Notes under the pieces: model-generated | Told to the model about the DNA's origin: nothing | The model's input: the letters and a program-made list of their open reading frames with translations, nothing else | The model's database searches: none | Shown: piece after piece, positions 37,918 through 54,457 of the stretch | Numbering within the stretch: the stretch's first letter is position 1 | Layout of the letters: the number at the start of each line of letters is the position of its first letter | Translations under genes and position numbers: made by a program | Assembly: GCF_000024905.1 (NCBI RefSeq) | Contig: NC_013522.1 | Location: 1,488,001 to 1,552,000 of the forward strand | Length of the DNA: 64,000 bases | DNA from: Thermanaerovibrio acidaminovorans DSM 6589 | GTDB taxonomy: Bacteria; Synergistota; Synergistia; Synergistales; Synergistaceae | Reading direction: 5' to 3'

Positions 37918-38292
37918 CTAGCCGGTGAAGCCACCCACCAGGGCCCCCATCCAGAGGGACAGGATCCCCGCCCCGTTCTGGATCAGCACGTTCAGGACCG
38001 CGTAGAAGGGGTTGGACTGGCGAAGCATGTTCACCGTCTCAAGGGCGAAGCTGGAGAAGGTGGTGAACCCCCCAAGGAAGCCAACCATGAGGGCCAGGCG
38101 TATGTGGTGATCCACCTCCCGATAGGAGAGCAGGGTCCACACGAAGCCCGCCAGAAAGCAACCCACTATGTTGACCACCACGGTGCCCACCGGGAAACCT
38201 ACTCCATTCACCCGCTGCTGGACCCCGGTGGACATGAGGTACCGGGCCAACGCCCCGGCGCCTCCCCCCAGGGCAACGTAAAGAGCCTCCAT
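37918..38292 (-). CDS. crcB: Fluoride channel CrcB/FluC
   Basis: 124 aa from ATG 38292 (GGGGGTG SD), typical length. Four membrane helices, with the pore Asn in VVVNIVGCFLAG and the Na+/Phe-box motif GGFTTFSSFALE. It exports fluoride as an antiparallel dimer; the single gene implies a homodimer. An extended -10 (TGG-TAAAAT, 38354-38359) lies upstream. No fluoride riboswitch consensus was found in the 110 bp upstream. Confidence 0.95.
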   Translation of the reverse strand: MEALYVALGGGAGALARYLMSTGVQQRVNGVGFPVGTVVVNIVGCFLAGFVWTLLSYREVDHHIRLALMVGFLGGFTTFSSFALETVNMLRQSNPFYAVLNVLIQNGAGILSLWMGALVGGFTG

Positions 38293-38403
38293 TGGAGCAC
38301 CCCCGCTTGAGTTGCATGTCAAAAATCGAGGCGATCCCTTCGATCGCAATCAGATTTTACCACAATTTCTACGATAGTACATATCATATATGGGACCGGG
38401 CTA

Positions 38404-48617: not shown

Positions 48618-49617
48618 GATCCAGGGGCTGGAGAAGTCCTACGGGGACGTGCCCGTGCTGGAGGGCCTATCGCTGGAGGTGGACCAGGGGGAGCTGCTGG
48701 CGGTGCTGGGCCCTTCCGGATGCGGGAAGTCGACCCTTCTCAGGTGTCTGGCCGGCCTGGAGGCCCCATCGGGGGGAAGGATATTCATGGGGGGTAGGGA
48801 CGTGACCCACCTGCCGCCCGGGGACAGGAACGTGGGAATGGTGTTCCAAAGCTACGCCCTCTTCCCCAACCTGGACGTGCTAGGCAACGTTACCTTCGGC
48901 CTGAGGGCCCGGGGCATCGGGGCCACCGAGGCCAGGCGGATGGGCATCCAGGTCCTGGATATGGTGGAGCTGAAGGGGCTGGAGGGGCGGATGATCTGGG
49001 AGATATCCGGGGGGCAAAGACAGCGGGTGGCCCTGGCCCGGGCCCTGGCCATAAGGCCCCAGGTGTTGCTCCTGGACGAACCCCTTTCCGCCCTGGACGC
49101 CAAGGTCAGGGAGCGGCTCCGGGAACACATACGTGGGATCCAGCGGGAGCTGTCGGTGACCACCATACTGGTGACCCACGACCAGGAGGAGGCCATGGAG
49201 ATGGCGGATAGGATTGGGATAATGAACCGGGGCAGGATGCTCCAGGTGGGCACCCCGGAGGAGGTGTTCATGAACCCGGCGGACAGGTTCGTGGCCACCT
49301 TCATGGGCAGGGCCAACCTGATACCCGCTGAACTGGCCGGCCGGGTGTGGAACCTGGACGGCCAGTCGGACTGGATGATCCGCCCCCATCTGGTGGACAT
49401 ATGCTCCCCTCATGACCCGGGGGCAATTACCGGAACGGTGGAGGACGTGGTCCTATCCGGCGGCACCGTCAGGGTCAAGGTCAGAATCTACCAAGGGCTC
49501 GTCGTGAGCTCCGAGGCCCCCTACAGGCCCGGTGGCCTGCCCCATAGGGGACAGCCGGTGGGCATCCGAGCATCCATGGAGCACCTGGTGAGGCTCACCG
49601 GTCCGGTGAGCGCCTAG
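48604..49617 (+). CDS. ABC transporter ATP-binding protein
   Basis: 337 aa. Walker A GPSGCGKST (about 37-45), Q-loop VFQSYALFPN, signature ISGGQRQR, Walker B VLLLDEPLSALD and H-loop VTHDQEEAM are all intact. A C-terminal TOBE domain (about 250-335) may sense substrate. PotA/FbpC-like class. Last gene of the binding protein-phosphodiesterase-permease-ATPase operon. The 156-bp gap after it has no obvious terminator. Confidence 0.95.
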   Translation: MRHIEIQGLEKSYGDVPVLEGLSLEVDQGELLAVLGPSGCGKSTLLRCLAGLEAPSGGRIFMGGRDVTHLPPGDRNVGMVFQSYALFPNLDVLGNVTFGLRARGIGATEARRMGIQVLDMVELKGLEGRMIWEISGGQRQRVALARALAIRPQVLLLDEPLSALDAKVRERLREHIRGIQRELSVTTILVTHDQEEAMEMADRIGIMNRGRMLQVGTPEEVFMNPADRFVATFMGRANLIPAELAGRVWNLDGQSDWMIRPHLVDICSPHDPGAITGTVEDVVLSGGTVRVKVRIYQGLVVSSEAPYRPGGLPHRGQPVGIRASMEHLVRLTGPVSA

Positions 49618-49819
49618 ATGCAGGGCTCATCCCATGGCCACCTTGACCTACAGGGGATCCTGGGTTTAAATTAACTTTAAGACAAAGAGAGGGTGATGGG
49701 GCTCACCCGAAACTGCTTTTCAAGCTGATGGCCTCTGCGGACCTCCGCGGGGCCATTTTCCATTTGAGGAGGCTTGATCCATGGAGGGATAAAGCGTTCT
49801 CTTCCCCGACGGGGACCGG

Positions 49820-50997
49820 ATGGATCCGGAGGCCTGTCCCCCTGGGACCGCAAGGGACCTCAACCTGGACCGGCTTATAGAGACCATCTGCGCCCAAAGG
49901 CGGGAGCAGCAGCTCCAGCCCTTCTTCGCCGCGCCCCCCAGGGACAGGGCCTCCGTCGTCTATCGGCAGGAGGTGATGAGGGACCTGGAGGACCCGGAGG
50001 TGCGGGACCGGGTGGACCGGTTTTGTCAGGCCATGGGGAACGTTCTGAGCTACCAGAGGCTGGCCCGGGAGTCCTCCTACAGGTACCACCGGGAGGGGTG
50101 GCACCTGGACGCCGCCATGACCTACGTGGAGGGGGGACGGAGCTGGCCCGTTTCCTTGGGACGTGGAACGTGAGGTTCAGGCGGCACCGGGGGCAGGAGG
50201 TGGAGATGAACCTCCGCCAGCGGGTCGGGATGGGACACGTGGAGGCCCGGATACTGGAGATGGTGGCCCGGCTCTTCCCGGAGCCGTTCCGGCGGCTGGT
50301 GGGGTTCTGCGAAGCCCACCGGGAGATCTTCCATCCCGCGGTGCTCAGGTTTCACCGGGAGGTTCAGTTCTACCTGGCCTACCTGGACTTCATCGCCCCC
50401 CTCAAGGCGAAGGGGCTCCACTTCTGCTACCCCTCGTTGTCCGGATCGAAGGAGGTCCTGGGGGAGGAGGCCTTCGACCTGGCCCTGGCCGATCGGTTGA
50501 TCGAGTCCGGGGGTGAGGTGGTGACCAACTCCTTCCACACCTCCGGGGACGAGCGGATCCTGGTGGTCACCGGCCCCAACCAGGGGGGCAAGACCACCTT
50601 CGCCAGGACGTTCGGCCAGCTACATCACCTGGCCAGGCTTGGCTGCCCCGTCCCGGGCAGGAGGGCGGAGACCTTCCTTTTCGACCGGATCCTGACCCAT
50701 TTCGAGAGGGCGGAGGATGTGAGCTCCCTGACCGGCAAGCTGGAGGAGGAGCTGCTGAGGGTGAGGGACATGCTTCGGGAGGGTGGGCGGGACAGCATAT
50801 TCATCCTGAACGAGCCCTTCAGCTCCACCACCTGGGCGGACGGGCTCGAGATCGGCCGACGGGTGATGGAGGCCATAAGGGAGAAGGGGGCTTTGTGCGT
50901 CTGGGTCACCTTCCTGGACGAGCTGGCCCACGCCATGACCCTGGTCAGGAAGCACCGGCTCACCTGCCATGACGTGATCAGGAGGATAGGATCATGA
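49820..50997 (+). pseudogene. MutS domain V ATPase (first of a pair), frameshifted
   Basis: The N-terminal part runs in one frame from ATG 49820 to a stop at 50173. The rest continues in a second frame to 50997. Adding one G to the run at 50131-50136 joins AAMTYVEG to TELARFLGTW and gives about 390 aa. The C-terminal half is a MutS-type ATPase: Walker A TGPNQGGKTT, Walker B FILNEPFSSTT with Asn in place of the usual Asp, and a conserved HxxH-like dimer segment. No mismatch-recognition domain is present. An ATG at 49781 with an excellent SD is followed after two codons by an in-frame TAA, so the true 5' end is unclear. Overlaps the next paralogue by 4 nt. Confidence 0.7.
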
Positions 50998-52483
50998 GGG
51001 TTAACCTCCTGTACCCGGACCGGGAGCTGGTCCGGGGGACGCCCACGGGGTGGAACCCGGAGCTCCCACGGGACATAGGGTTGGACACGGTGCTCGACCA
51101 CATGGCTCAGGGGGACAAGTTTGTCCGGCAGGCGGCCTTTGATGTCATATCCAGGCCCTCGATGGACGTGGAGACCATCCTGCACCGCCAGGGGGCCTCA
51201 GGGACTGTCTGGAGAACCTTGAGGTGGTGCGGCGGATCTACCGGATAACCCTGGAGTATCTGGAGAGGAAGGCCCAGCAGTGGCTGTGTCTGTCCCCCCG
51301 GCACGCCAGCCCCAGCTCGGTGCTGAGCGGATCCCAGCGGCTCCTGGAGGCCTCGCTGGACCTGCTGGAGGAGCTGAGGCGCCTGGCCCGGGAGGAGGCC
51401 CACCGCTTCCCCTCCGCCGCCTTCGGCGCTTTCTTCGACTCCATAGGGAGGGAGCTGGACGACGATTACATGGGGCAGCTGAGGCATCACGTGAAGGCCC
51501 TGGGGCTCCGGGAGGGGGTCACCATAAGCGCCAGGCTGGGGATGGGCAACGAGGGGACCGGTTACGCCCTCTGCGAGGAGGCACCCCGGGCAGGTGGGCT
51601 TCTCCAGCGGGCCCTCGGGACCCGGGCGGCGGGGTTCTCCTTCGATCCCCGGGACGAGGGGTCCTTCAATGCCCTGGGGGACATCAGGGACAGGGCAGTG
51701 CTCCGGGCCGCCAGGGTAGCTACCCAGGGGGCGGGGCACGTGGAGGGCTTCTTCACCCTGCTTCGGTTCGAGCTGGCCTTCTACCTGGGGTGCGCCAACC
51801 TCCACCGGGCCCTGACCGAGATGGGCCTGCCGGTCACCTTCCCGATCCCCGATCCCATGGGTAGCGGGGGCCTCTCCTGCCGGGACCTGTACCACGTGTC
51901 AATGGCCCTGGAGAACCGGGGCAGGGCGGTGGGGAACCGGGTCCGCTGGGCAGGATCGCCCCTGATGGTGATCACCGGGGTCAACCGGGGGGGCAAGACC
52001 ACGTTCCTCAGGGGGTTAGGGCTGGCGCAGCTCATGATGCAGGCCGGCATGTTCGTGGGGGCCAGCCATATGGAGGCGGAGCTGGCCAGCGGCATCTTCT
52101 CCCACTTCAGACAGGAGGAGGACGCCTCCATGAGGAGCGGCAAGTTTGAGGAGGAGCTGACGAGGCTGGAGGCCGTGGTGGACGCCCTGCGGCCCGGGGG
52201 ATTGCTTCTGCTCAACGAGTCCCTCTCGGCCACCAATGAGCGGGAGGGATCTGCGGTGGCCCAGGAGATCCTCAAGGGGCTTTTGGACCGGGGTATCCGG
52301 GTGGCCTACGTCACCCACCTGCACCAGCTGGTGGCGTCCCTGGAACGGCACATGGGGGACCGGGTGCTCTTTCTGTCCCCCGAGAGGCTCGAGGACGGCA
52401 CCAGGACCTTCAGGCTAATGGAGGGGCCGCCCCGGGGCACCGGCTTTGGCGTGGACCTGTACCGGCGGATCATGGGATCCTGA
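50994..52483 (+). pseudogene. MutS domain V ATPase (second of a pair), frameshifted
   Basis: Starts at ATG 50994 (GGAGGATAG SD), overlapping the stop of the first paralogue (ATGA). The first frame stops at 51248; the second runs to 52483. One extra G at 51191-51195 would join VETILHRQG to LRDCLENLEVVRR and give about 496 aa. Walker A is TGVNRGGKTT and Walker B LLLLNESLSATNE, again with Asn for Asp. A long helical lever-like region precedes the ATPase, but no mismatch-binding domain. The pair is co-transcribed, perhaps forming a heterodimer. Role in DNA repair is inferred only from the domain. Confidence 0.7.
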
Positions 52484-52646: not shown

Positions 52647-54457
52647 ATGAAGGTTTCGATGCGCACCGGCATGATAGGCACCGCGGTCCTGCTGTTGGGG
52701 ATCAGTTGCGGCATCCTGTTCTGGTTCTCCTTGAGCAGCCTCAGGTCCTCCACGGAGGAACTGTCCAAGCGGTCCTTCGAGGACAAGGTCTCGGGGGCCA
52801 TCAACGTGATGGAGCAGCTGGTGTCCCGGGACTACGGGAGGCTACGGCTGGAGGACGGGAAGCTGGTGGACTCTACGGGCAGACCGGTGGAGGACAGGTA
52901 CGAGCTGGTGGACAACCTGTCCAGCGCCATGGGAGTGGTGGCCACCATATTCAAGGCCCAGGACGACGACTTCGTCCGGGTGGCCACGTCGGTCAGGAAG
53001 GAGGACGGCTCCCGGGCGGTGGGGACCACCCTGGGCCGGGACAGCGCCGCCTACGAGCCGGTCCGGTCCGGCAGGACCTACATGGGGACCGCTAAGATCC
53101 TGGGCAAGGAGCACGTTACGGTCTACAAGCCCTACAAGGACGATCAGGGGCGGATCATAGGTATCCTCTTCGTGGGCACCCCGGTGGAGCAGGTCCAGAT
53201 GATTGCCAGGAGCCAGAGCTCCAGGGCCTCCCGGGGGCTATCGATCATATTCCTGGCCTCTATCCTGGTTACCGTAGCGGGGTTCATCTTCCTCTCCCAG
53301 AGGCTCATCGTATGCCCCCTGCTGGGGCTGCGCCCGGTATTGGAGGCCATGGGGGACGGTAACTTCGCGGTCCGTTACGATTACCGGGGTCCCATCCTGG
53401 AGCTCGAGGCCCTTGGGGAAGCGGTGGAGGGCCTTCGGTCCAGGATAACGCCCCTCATAAAGGAGCTTCAGGAGGGTTGCGCCACAATCACCGCCGACGC
53501 GGAGGGGCTGGCGGAGGTGGCGGAGAACGTAAGCGCCCAGGGGGAGGATCTGGTGGCCCGGATCGGATCCGTGGACGCCATGGTCAAGGGGCCTCCACGT
53601 CCATCGAGGAGGTCACCCACGCGAGCCAGGAGGTGGCCCAGACCGCCCAGGGGGTGGCCATTGCCGCCCAGGAGCTGACCGAGAAGGCCAACCTGGTGAA
53701 GTCCGCCGCGGTGAACGGCCACGAGGCGGTGAAGGCCATAGTGGAGATGATATCCCAAAGCCGCCAGGGGGCCCGGAGGACCGAGGCGGCGGTCTCCCAC
53801 CTGGCGGAGAACGCCAGCAACATAGGCGCCATAGTGGGGACCATAAACGCCATAGCGGAGCAGACGAACCTGCTGGCCCTTAACGCCGCCATCGAGGCCG
53901 CTCGGGCGGGGGAGGCGGGCAGGGGCTTCGCGGTGGTGGCCGAGGAGGTCCGGAAGCTGGCGGAGGAGAGCAAGGGGGCCACGGGGAAGATAAACGAGAT
54001 CCTGAACGACATCCAAAAGGGGTCCGCCCAGGCGGTGGAGGAGACCCTCCAGAGCCTCCGTCAGGTGGAGAGGACCGTCGAGCAGTCCGGCCTGATAGAG
54101 GTCCAGTTCAACCACATACTGGAGCAGGTGAACGCCATAGGGGGCATGATCGAGTCCCTGGCGGCCCATGCGGAGGAGCTGGGCGCCTCGTCAGAGGAGA
54201 TGAGCGGCGCCATGGACGCCGCGGCCCGCTCCATCGGGGAGGTCACCCAGCAGGTGGATCAGATGGTCCAGGCGGTGAGGCAGCAGGCGGAGGCCAACCA
54301 GCAGGTCACATCCTCCAGCGAGACCCTCTCAGCGGTGGCGGAGTCCTTGATGGAGCACGTGAGGCGCTTCCGGATCGGAGACGCCAGGGAAGCGCTGGAA
54401 ACCTCCCCCAGCCGCGGGGTCATCCCCCTGGGACAGGAGGCCTACAACCCCGCTTAA
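52647..54457 (+). pseudogene. Methyl-accepting chemotaxis protein, frameshifted
   Basis: The first frame (52647 to 53678) encodes a membrane helix, a periplasmic single-Cache sensor domain (about residues 35-190), a second helix (LSIIFLASILVTVAGFIFL) and a HAMP-like region. The signalling domain, with the tip [20 protein letters not shown], is in another frame that ends at 54457. One extra G in the run at 53588-53591 would join VDAMVKG to [12 protein letters not shown], giving about 603 aa. Whether the shift is real is unknown. Ligand unknown; Cache domains of this kind often bind carboxylates. Confidence 0.75.

Follow-up and report, generated by a model that had tools for sequence, protein, structure and literature searches.

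A decaying MutS4A/MutS4B gene pair behind a fluoride riboswitch in Thermanaerovibrio acidaminovorans, probable member of a horizontally spread fluoride-stress family

MutS4A and MutS4B, named by Lin et al. (2007) as cited in PMC5742357, are described there as adjacent paralogous genes that overlap at the A stop and B start, encode the ATPase domain only and show a patchy, horizontal spread. A MutS4 operon increased how often an rpoB fragment recombined in Mycobacterium smegmatis and the pair was read as recombination-promoting repair genes; fluoride is mentioned 0 times (PMC5742357). The crcB motif, i.e. the fluoride riboswitch, was reported in 5' untranslated regions of mutS, K+/Cl- transport and formate hydrogen lyase genes, and the link between mutS and crcB RNA has thus been published since 2010 (Weinberg, 2010; PMC2864571); the accessible part of that report neither assigns mutS to the MutS4 pair nor notes a Walker B change. 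Two other MutS-fold ATPases resemble MutS4: MutS2 (Thermus thermophilus, 7vuf and 7vuk; Bacillus subtilis, 7qv3) shares the core, lever and ATPase fold without mismatch domains, and KamC, the reactivase ATPase of lysine 5,6-aminomutase (NF052383), is likewise a MutS-like ATPase, about 500 residues long, that works outside DNA repair. Here we describe a 64,000-nucleotide stretch of the T. acidaminovorans DSM 6589 genome (NC_013522.1, positions 1,488,001 to 1,552,000; the window), in which a decayed pair of the MutS4A/MutS4B type follows a fluoride riboswitch.

The genome consists of one contig of 1,848,474 bases and carries ordinary mutS1 and mutS2 genes elsewhere. A first-pass annotation of the window had reported two overlapping genes for MutS ATPase domains without mismatch-recognition domains, and both their positions and their domain content were borne out (Table 1). 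MutS_V (PF00488) was matched with 60.5 bits by A and 61.0 bits by B (cut-off 30.2) and, weak AAA overlaps apart, was the sole domain match in the pieces of A and B in the window and in intact relatives. Intact relatives of A and B gave no match to MutS domains I-IV or Smr, and their length leaves no space for Smr after domain V. The overlap likewise stands, as the A stop and the B start share four bases (ATGA, 50994-50997); the genes themselves had to be redrawn, since neither is intact and A likely began further upstream.

Overlooked in the first-pass annotation was the fluoride riboswitch at 49683-49744. Its aptamer scored 44.1 bits against an Rfam gathering threshold of 34 and was the sole fluoride riboswitch copy detected in a search of the 1.85 Mb genome. 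The architecture is that described for the fluoride riboswitch regulon in PMC2864571. Scanning for promoters yielded one site where 0.1 were expected, which ends 11 bases before the riboswitch. The whole leader RNA folded with a z of -2.78, and a hairpin overlapping the aptamer is a candidate expression-platform terminator, as expected of a fluoride-on transcriptional switch; a terminator pattern scan that needs five T in eight did not flag it. The ATG behind GAGGAGG is likely the original start of A: past the in-frame TAA the frame reads SVLFPDGDR, which resembles the N-terminus of the family consensus (F-x-S-I-L-F-p).

Table 1. Features of the MutS4 locus, with positions in the window, and two neighbour genes of other family loci
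Feature	Position	Strand	Evidence or remark
CrcB/Fluc fluoride channel gene	37918-38349	-	PF02537, 100 bits at genome positions 1525945-1526283; open reading frame
Sigma-70-like promoter, TTGACC-18-TAAATT	49643-49672	+	consensus scan, weak evidence
Fluoride riboswitch aptamer (RF01734, crcB motif)	49683-49744	+	cmscan, 44.1 bits, E 5.9e-9
GC-rich hairpin, then UUUUCC	49727-49757	+	RNA fold; overlaps 3' part of aptamer
Shine-Dalgarno GAGGAGG, ATG at 49781, in-frame TAA at 49790-49792 (codon 4)	49766-49792	+	read directly
mutS4A remnant	49820-50997 (likely original start 49781)	+	frame 49820-50134, then frame ~50135-50997
Walker A of A, GPNQGGKTT	50572-50598	+	read directly; family-wide
Walker B region of A, ILNEPFSSTT, Asn for Asp	50803-50832	+	
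mutS4B	50994-52483	+	full length apart from 1-base frameshift
Walker A of B, GVNRGGKTT	51977-52003	+	read directly
Walker B region of B, LLNESLSATNE, Asn for Asp	52208-52240	+	
Dynamin-like GTPase gene, locus L037	11745-13496	-	
Dynamin-like GTPase gene, locus L036	4106-6028	+	

With a profile of three B proteins, 80 loci were collected that span Bacillota, Chloroflexota, Acidobacteriota, Actinomycetota, Pseudomonadota, Campylobacterota, Deinococcota, Thermotogota and others, and the idea that the pair is limited to a few Synergistota was rejected. In 79 of 81 loci A immediately precedes B, and the other two are interrupted by contig ends, so the conserved pairing, which the first-pass annotation had proposed as a check, holds for the family. 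An intact pair occurs in the Synergistaceae metagenome-assembled genome UBA6101, a family-level relative. One Clostridiales genome (contigs C64, C99 and C127) apparently contains three MutS4-like pairs. A presumed natural A-B fusion (locus L071, open reading frame of 1176 aa) was dismissed as a B open frame running on through the GC-rich DNA of A.

The phylogeny of standalone MutS-V proteins, also proposed as a check, placed A and B in clades of their own. In a tree of 24 A and 21 B sequences with MutS1, MutS2 and KamC as comparison, the A clade (support 100/99) and the B clade (99/98) contained the A and B of the window, respectively, and were together set apart from all three comparison groups. 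MutS2 formed a separate clade (100/97) and KamC grouped with it, away from MutS4. MutS2 further differs from MutS4 in being a single gene with an Smr domain, and MutS1 in its recognition and connector domains I and II, which were not found in MutS4. Orthology to KamC, prompted by the first family scan, was rejected: true KamC proteins above the cut-off were found only in other genomes, and KamC has a non-MutS protein as upstream neighbour, keeps the Walker B Asp and falls into a separate clade. Judged by its sequence, the pair belongs to MutS4A/MutS4B and the window copies are decayed members; the name rests on the signature features and on the mycobacterial relatives, not on the sequences of Lin et al. 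(2007).

The association with fluoride extends across the family. A covariance model (R1) was built from 22 Rfam matches and trained partly on the scanned loci, which inflates its scores; it detected 123 aptamers in 81 MutS4 loci and 0 in 29 control mutS1/mutS2 loci, and gave 60.8 bits for the aptamer of the window. Among the 61 loci that span 9 kb or more, 55 held at least one fluoride riboswitch, and a riboswitch on the same strand lay within 700 nucleotides of A in 49 of the 68 loci that reach far enough upstream. Of the 21 loci scanned with the Rfam model alone, most agreed with this result. Within Synergistota, the riboswitch occurred in all three genomes with the pair and in 11/61 overall (Fisher p ~0.005, calculated by hand).

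Neighbouring gene families, most of them named with Pfam, were counted by profile across the 80 loci; the cluster names CrcB, S-adenosylmethionine synthetase and pyrophosphatase were assigned by sequence inspection, not by family search. Dynamin-like GTPases were present in 19 loci, major facilitator superfamily transporters in 17, enolase in 14, DUF190 in 10, subunits of the hydrogenase-4/formate-hydrogenlyase type in 9-11, CrcB/Fluc in 7, S-adenosylmethionine synthetase in 6 and a pyrophosphatase-like cluster in 4. The dynamin-like GTPase (~580-640 aa), the commonest protein neighbour, is sometimes preceded by a fluoride riboswitch of its own. As a partner at the T. acidaminovorans locus it was rejected, the only homologue being distant and far off at 1324982.

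Relatives of B were also found in 47 plasmid records, 21 of them predicted to be conjugative. On the mobilizable Klebsiella plasmid NZ_LR890738.1, MutS4AB, annotated as hypothetical or MutS domain V protein and with relatives on other enterobacterial plasmids, lies beside ppaC-uspA-eno-gpmA-crcB. The same set forms the FRM operon of Enterobacter cloacae, which is fluoride-induced and, as knockouts showed, needed for resistance (PMC5533749). Near the pair, a Rhodococcus plasmid carries eno and crcB and a Mycobacterium plasmid hydrogenase and NADH-quinone oxidoreductase subunits; fluoride aptamers are present on all three plasmids. The mycobacterial MutS4 island of PMC5742357 is alike in its enolase, NADH-dehydrogenase-type and hydrogenase subunits. 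In M. yongonense the genes of this island (OEM_51290-51410) are those of a fluoride-stress cluster, a point on which that paper does not remark. Because of this regulation and these neighbours, a fluoride-stress role of the MutS4 family, unlike those of MutS and MutS2, is strongly supported at the level of sequence. The first-pass suggestion of a role different from MutS or MutS2 thus fits the family, but not the broken copies of the window.

The first-pass annotation had also noted LNE in place of LDE in both genes. This reading was confirmed, and the Asn proved invariant: Asn-Glu was found in 69/69 A and 79/79 B proteins, while Asp occupies the position in 37/37 MutS1 and 8/8 MutS2 matches and in the KamC copies examined. 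Two further Asn matches in the control scan probably stem from MutS4 genes, their loci having been reached via genomes that carry MutS4. In the alignment the Asn column corresponds to D693 of E. coli MutS. Mutants of the Walker B Asp are in general expected to cycle ATP more slowly. D693N is a laboratory mutant of E. coli MutS that others have crystallised (3K0S). At the switch-histidine column (E. coli H728), all sampled MutS4A carry Phe and MutS4B carry His, which suggests one weakened ATP site. AlphaFold single-chain models (mean predicted local distance difference test score 86.9 for A and 84.7 for B) combined the ATPase domain with a helical core that has long lever helices and, where the clamp would sit, a small beta hairpin modelled at low confidence. 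Their nearest solved folds were MutS2 cores and MSH2/MSH3, and also the MutS2-disome complex 7qv3, at TM-scores of ~0.55, by which the domain arrangement is loosely matched.

The window copies have lost the intact reading frames that mark a functional MutS4 member. In addition to its stop at codon 4, A has a 1-base frameshift at GGGGGG near 50134 and lacks ~70 residues after position 126 (L045 numbering) in the lever/clamp region as well as 34 residues, 458-491 (same numbering), near the C-terminus. Neither deletion was found in any of 69 A homologues, nor was the early stop or the frameshift. At the second deletion, where other family members read DELA and DGLA, DEL runs straight into A, and slippage between short repeats is its likely cause. 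B carries a 1-base frameshift at GGGGG near 51190-51206. Directly 3' of B, a methyl-accepting chemotaxis gene (52647-54457) shows a 1-base shift at GGGGCC near 53590 and is the third consecutive frameshifted gene after A and B. All three shifts fall at G-runs, as they would if the genes were intact in the organism and the lesions were sequencing errors. However, none of 117 orthologous genes elsewhere, from 464 kb of the genome compared with a same-genus genome, was split by a frameshift, so that a general assembly fault is unlikely, though a local one is possible; the early stop and the two deletions of A, moreover, lie beyond homopolymer error. Sequencing error is rejected as the whole explanation, and we consider it improbable that the copies are intact. 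From its sequence the pair looks dead in T. acidaminovorans, with A beyond plausible function. The first-pass annotation had named the genuine death of both genes as an outcome that would speak against its proposal; in view of the stop, deletions and frameshifts this largely applies to the window copies but not to the family. Two same-genus genomes contain neither the pair nor the riboswitch, which is consistent with gain by transfer followed by decay in T. acidaminovorans.

Two further features of the window lie outside the unit of the pair. An ABC-transporter operon located 5' of the locus ends at 49617 and is separate from it. The CrcB/Fluc gene, ~11 kb upstream of the pair and without a riboswitch of its own, shares physiology with the pair and is outside its operon.

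Taken together, we regard the locus as very probably a decaying copy of a MutS4A/MutS4B operon, a horizontally spread fluoride-stress module whose intact pair would act as a heterodimeric ATP clamp for fluoride tolerance. In intact copies, rising cytoplasmic fluoride would bind the aptamer with Mg2+ and switch on co-translation of A and B, which we infer to assemble into a heterodimeric clamp that resembles MutS2 and lacks mismatch-reading domains. Both composite ATP sites of the clamp would be unusual, with Walker B Asp changed to Asn in both and the switch His to Phe in A only; because of these sites the clamp would keep ATP bound for long and have a slow, asymmetric cycle, and so may be a persistent, ATP-gated one. 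While Mg-dependent phosphoryl-transfer enzymes are inhibited by fluoride, it could protect or remodel nucleic-acid intermediates, for instance structures of stalled replication or recombination. Nucleic acid, to which the related folds and the recombination effect in M. smegmatis (PMC5742357) point, is tentatively the likeliest of several possible targets. Several points weigh against this interpretation, apart from the inflated R1 scores. Four of the 61 longer loci showed no fluoride feature, and several riboswitches precede other cluster genes instead of A directly. Fluoride induction and benefit of MutS4, as well as A-B binding, rest on inference. The recombination effect in M. smegmatis was obtained in a heterologous setting and is unrelated to fluoride (PMC5742357), and the E. 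cloacae FRM operon gives resistance with no MutS4 gene in its operon table (PMC5533749).

Other functions would account for parts of these data. MutS4AB might, by analogy with KamC, be a reactivase that drives the inhibitor out of fluoride-trapped enzymes by remodelling them, with enolase or P-loop NTPases locked by Mg-fluoride-phosphate as examples, the Asn shielding the remodeller itself from trapping. Such enzyme rescue is favoured by the frequent neighbourhood of fluoride-sensitive enzyme genes (enolase, pyrophosphatase), by KamC being among the best curated family matches, and by the Asn being universal in a fluoride-linked family and not found in the MutS1, MutS2 and KamC copies examined. 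Yet KamC is unpaired with another MutS protein, keeps the Asp and groups with MutS2 in the tree, MutS4 reached at best 73.5 bits on the KamC model NF052383 against a cut-off of 300, and contact with an enzyme is only hypothetical; we consider this reading unlikely, though worth keeping in mind. Equally speculative is a purpose-built, fluoride-tolerant MutS machine, in which the Asn, as an adaptation, would keep Mg-fluoride from locking the ATP sites by weakening their hold on Mg2+, and the heterodimer would free fluoride-trapped enzymes or nucleic-acid machines at high fluoride.

The appearance of the MutS2 core and of the MutS2-disome complex among the closest solved folds would suit a role in splitting or clearing ribosomes that stall as fluoride inhibits GTPases and metabolism, similar to B. 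subtilis MutS2 on collided disomes; the missing Smr match in intact relatives and the lack of length after domain V make this improbable. That the genes serve ordinary DNA mismatch repair, as the database annotation 'DNA mismatch repair protein MutS' implies, and are near fluoride genes by chance or by hitch-hiking on resistance islands, is very improbable: islands and plasmids do hold mixed cargo, but domains I and II are missing and correctly oriented riboswitches immediately precede A in distant phyla. The fluoride-responsive clamp is preferred here.

A literature search for fluoride together with 'MutS domain V' returned no papers, and a 2024 review of fluoride resistance makes no mention of mismatch or DNA repair. 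Within partial coverage of the literature, no statement of MutS4 as a fluoride family with a constant Walker B Asn was found; the invariant Asn and its tie to fluoride may be new, and priority is not claimed. Existing annotation labels MutS4 pairs as DNA mismatch repair or hypothetical proteins, also on mobile plasmids of Klebsiella, Enterobacter and Citrobacter. Fluoride stress gives this family a testable condition, and the invariant Asn at the position of E. coli MutS D693 leads to a concrete biochemical prediction. If MutS4 acts off DNA, it would join MutS2 and KamC as MutS-fold ATPases with non-repair targets. A little-studied 'DNA repair' family is linked here to coping with toxic fluoride.
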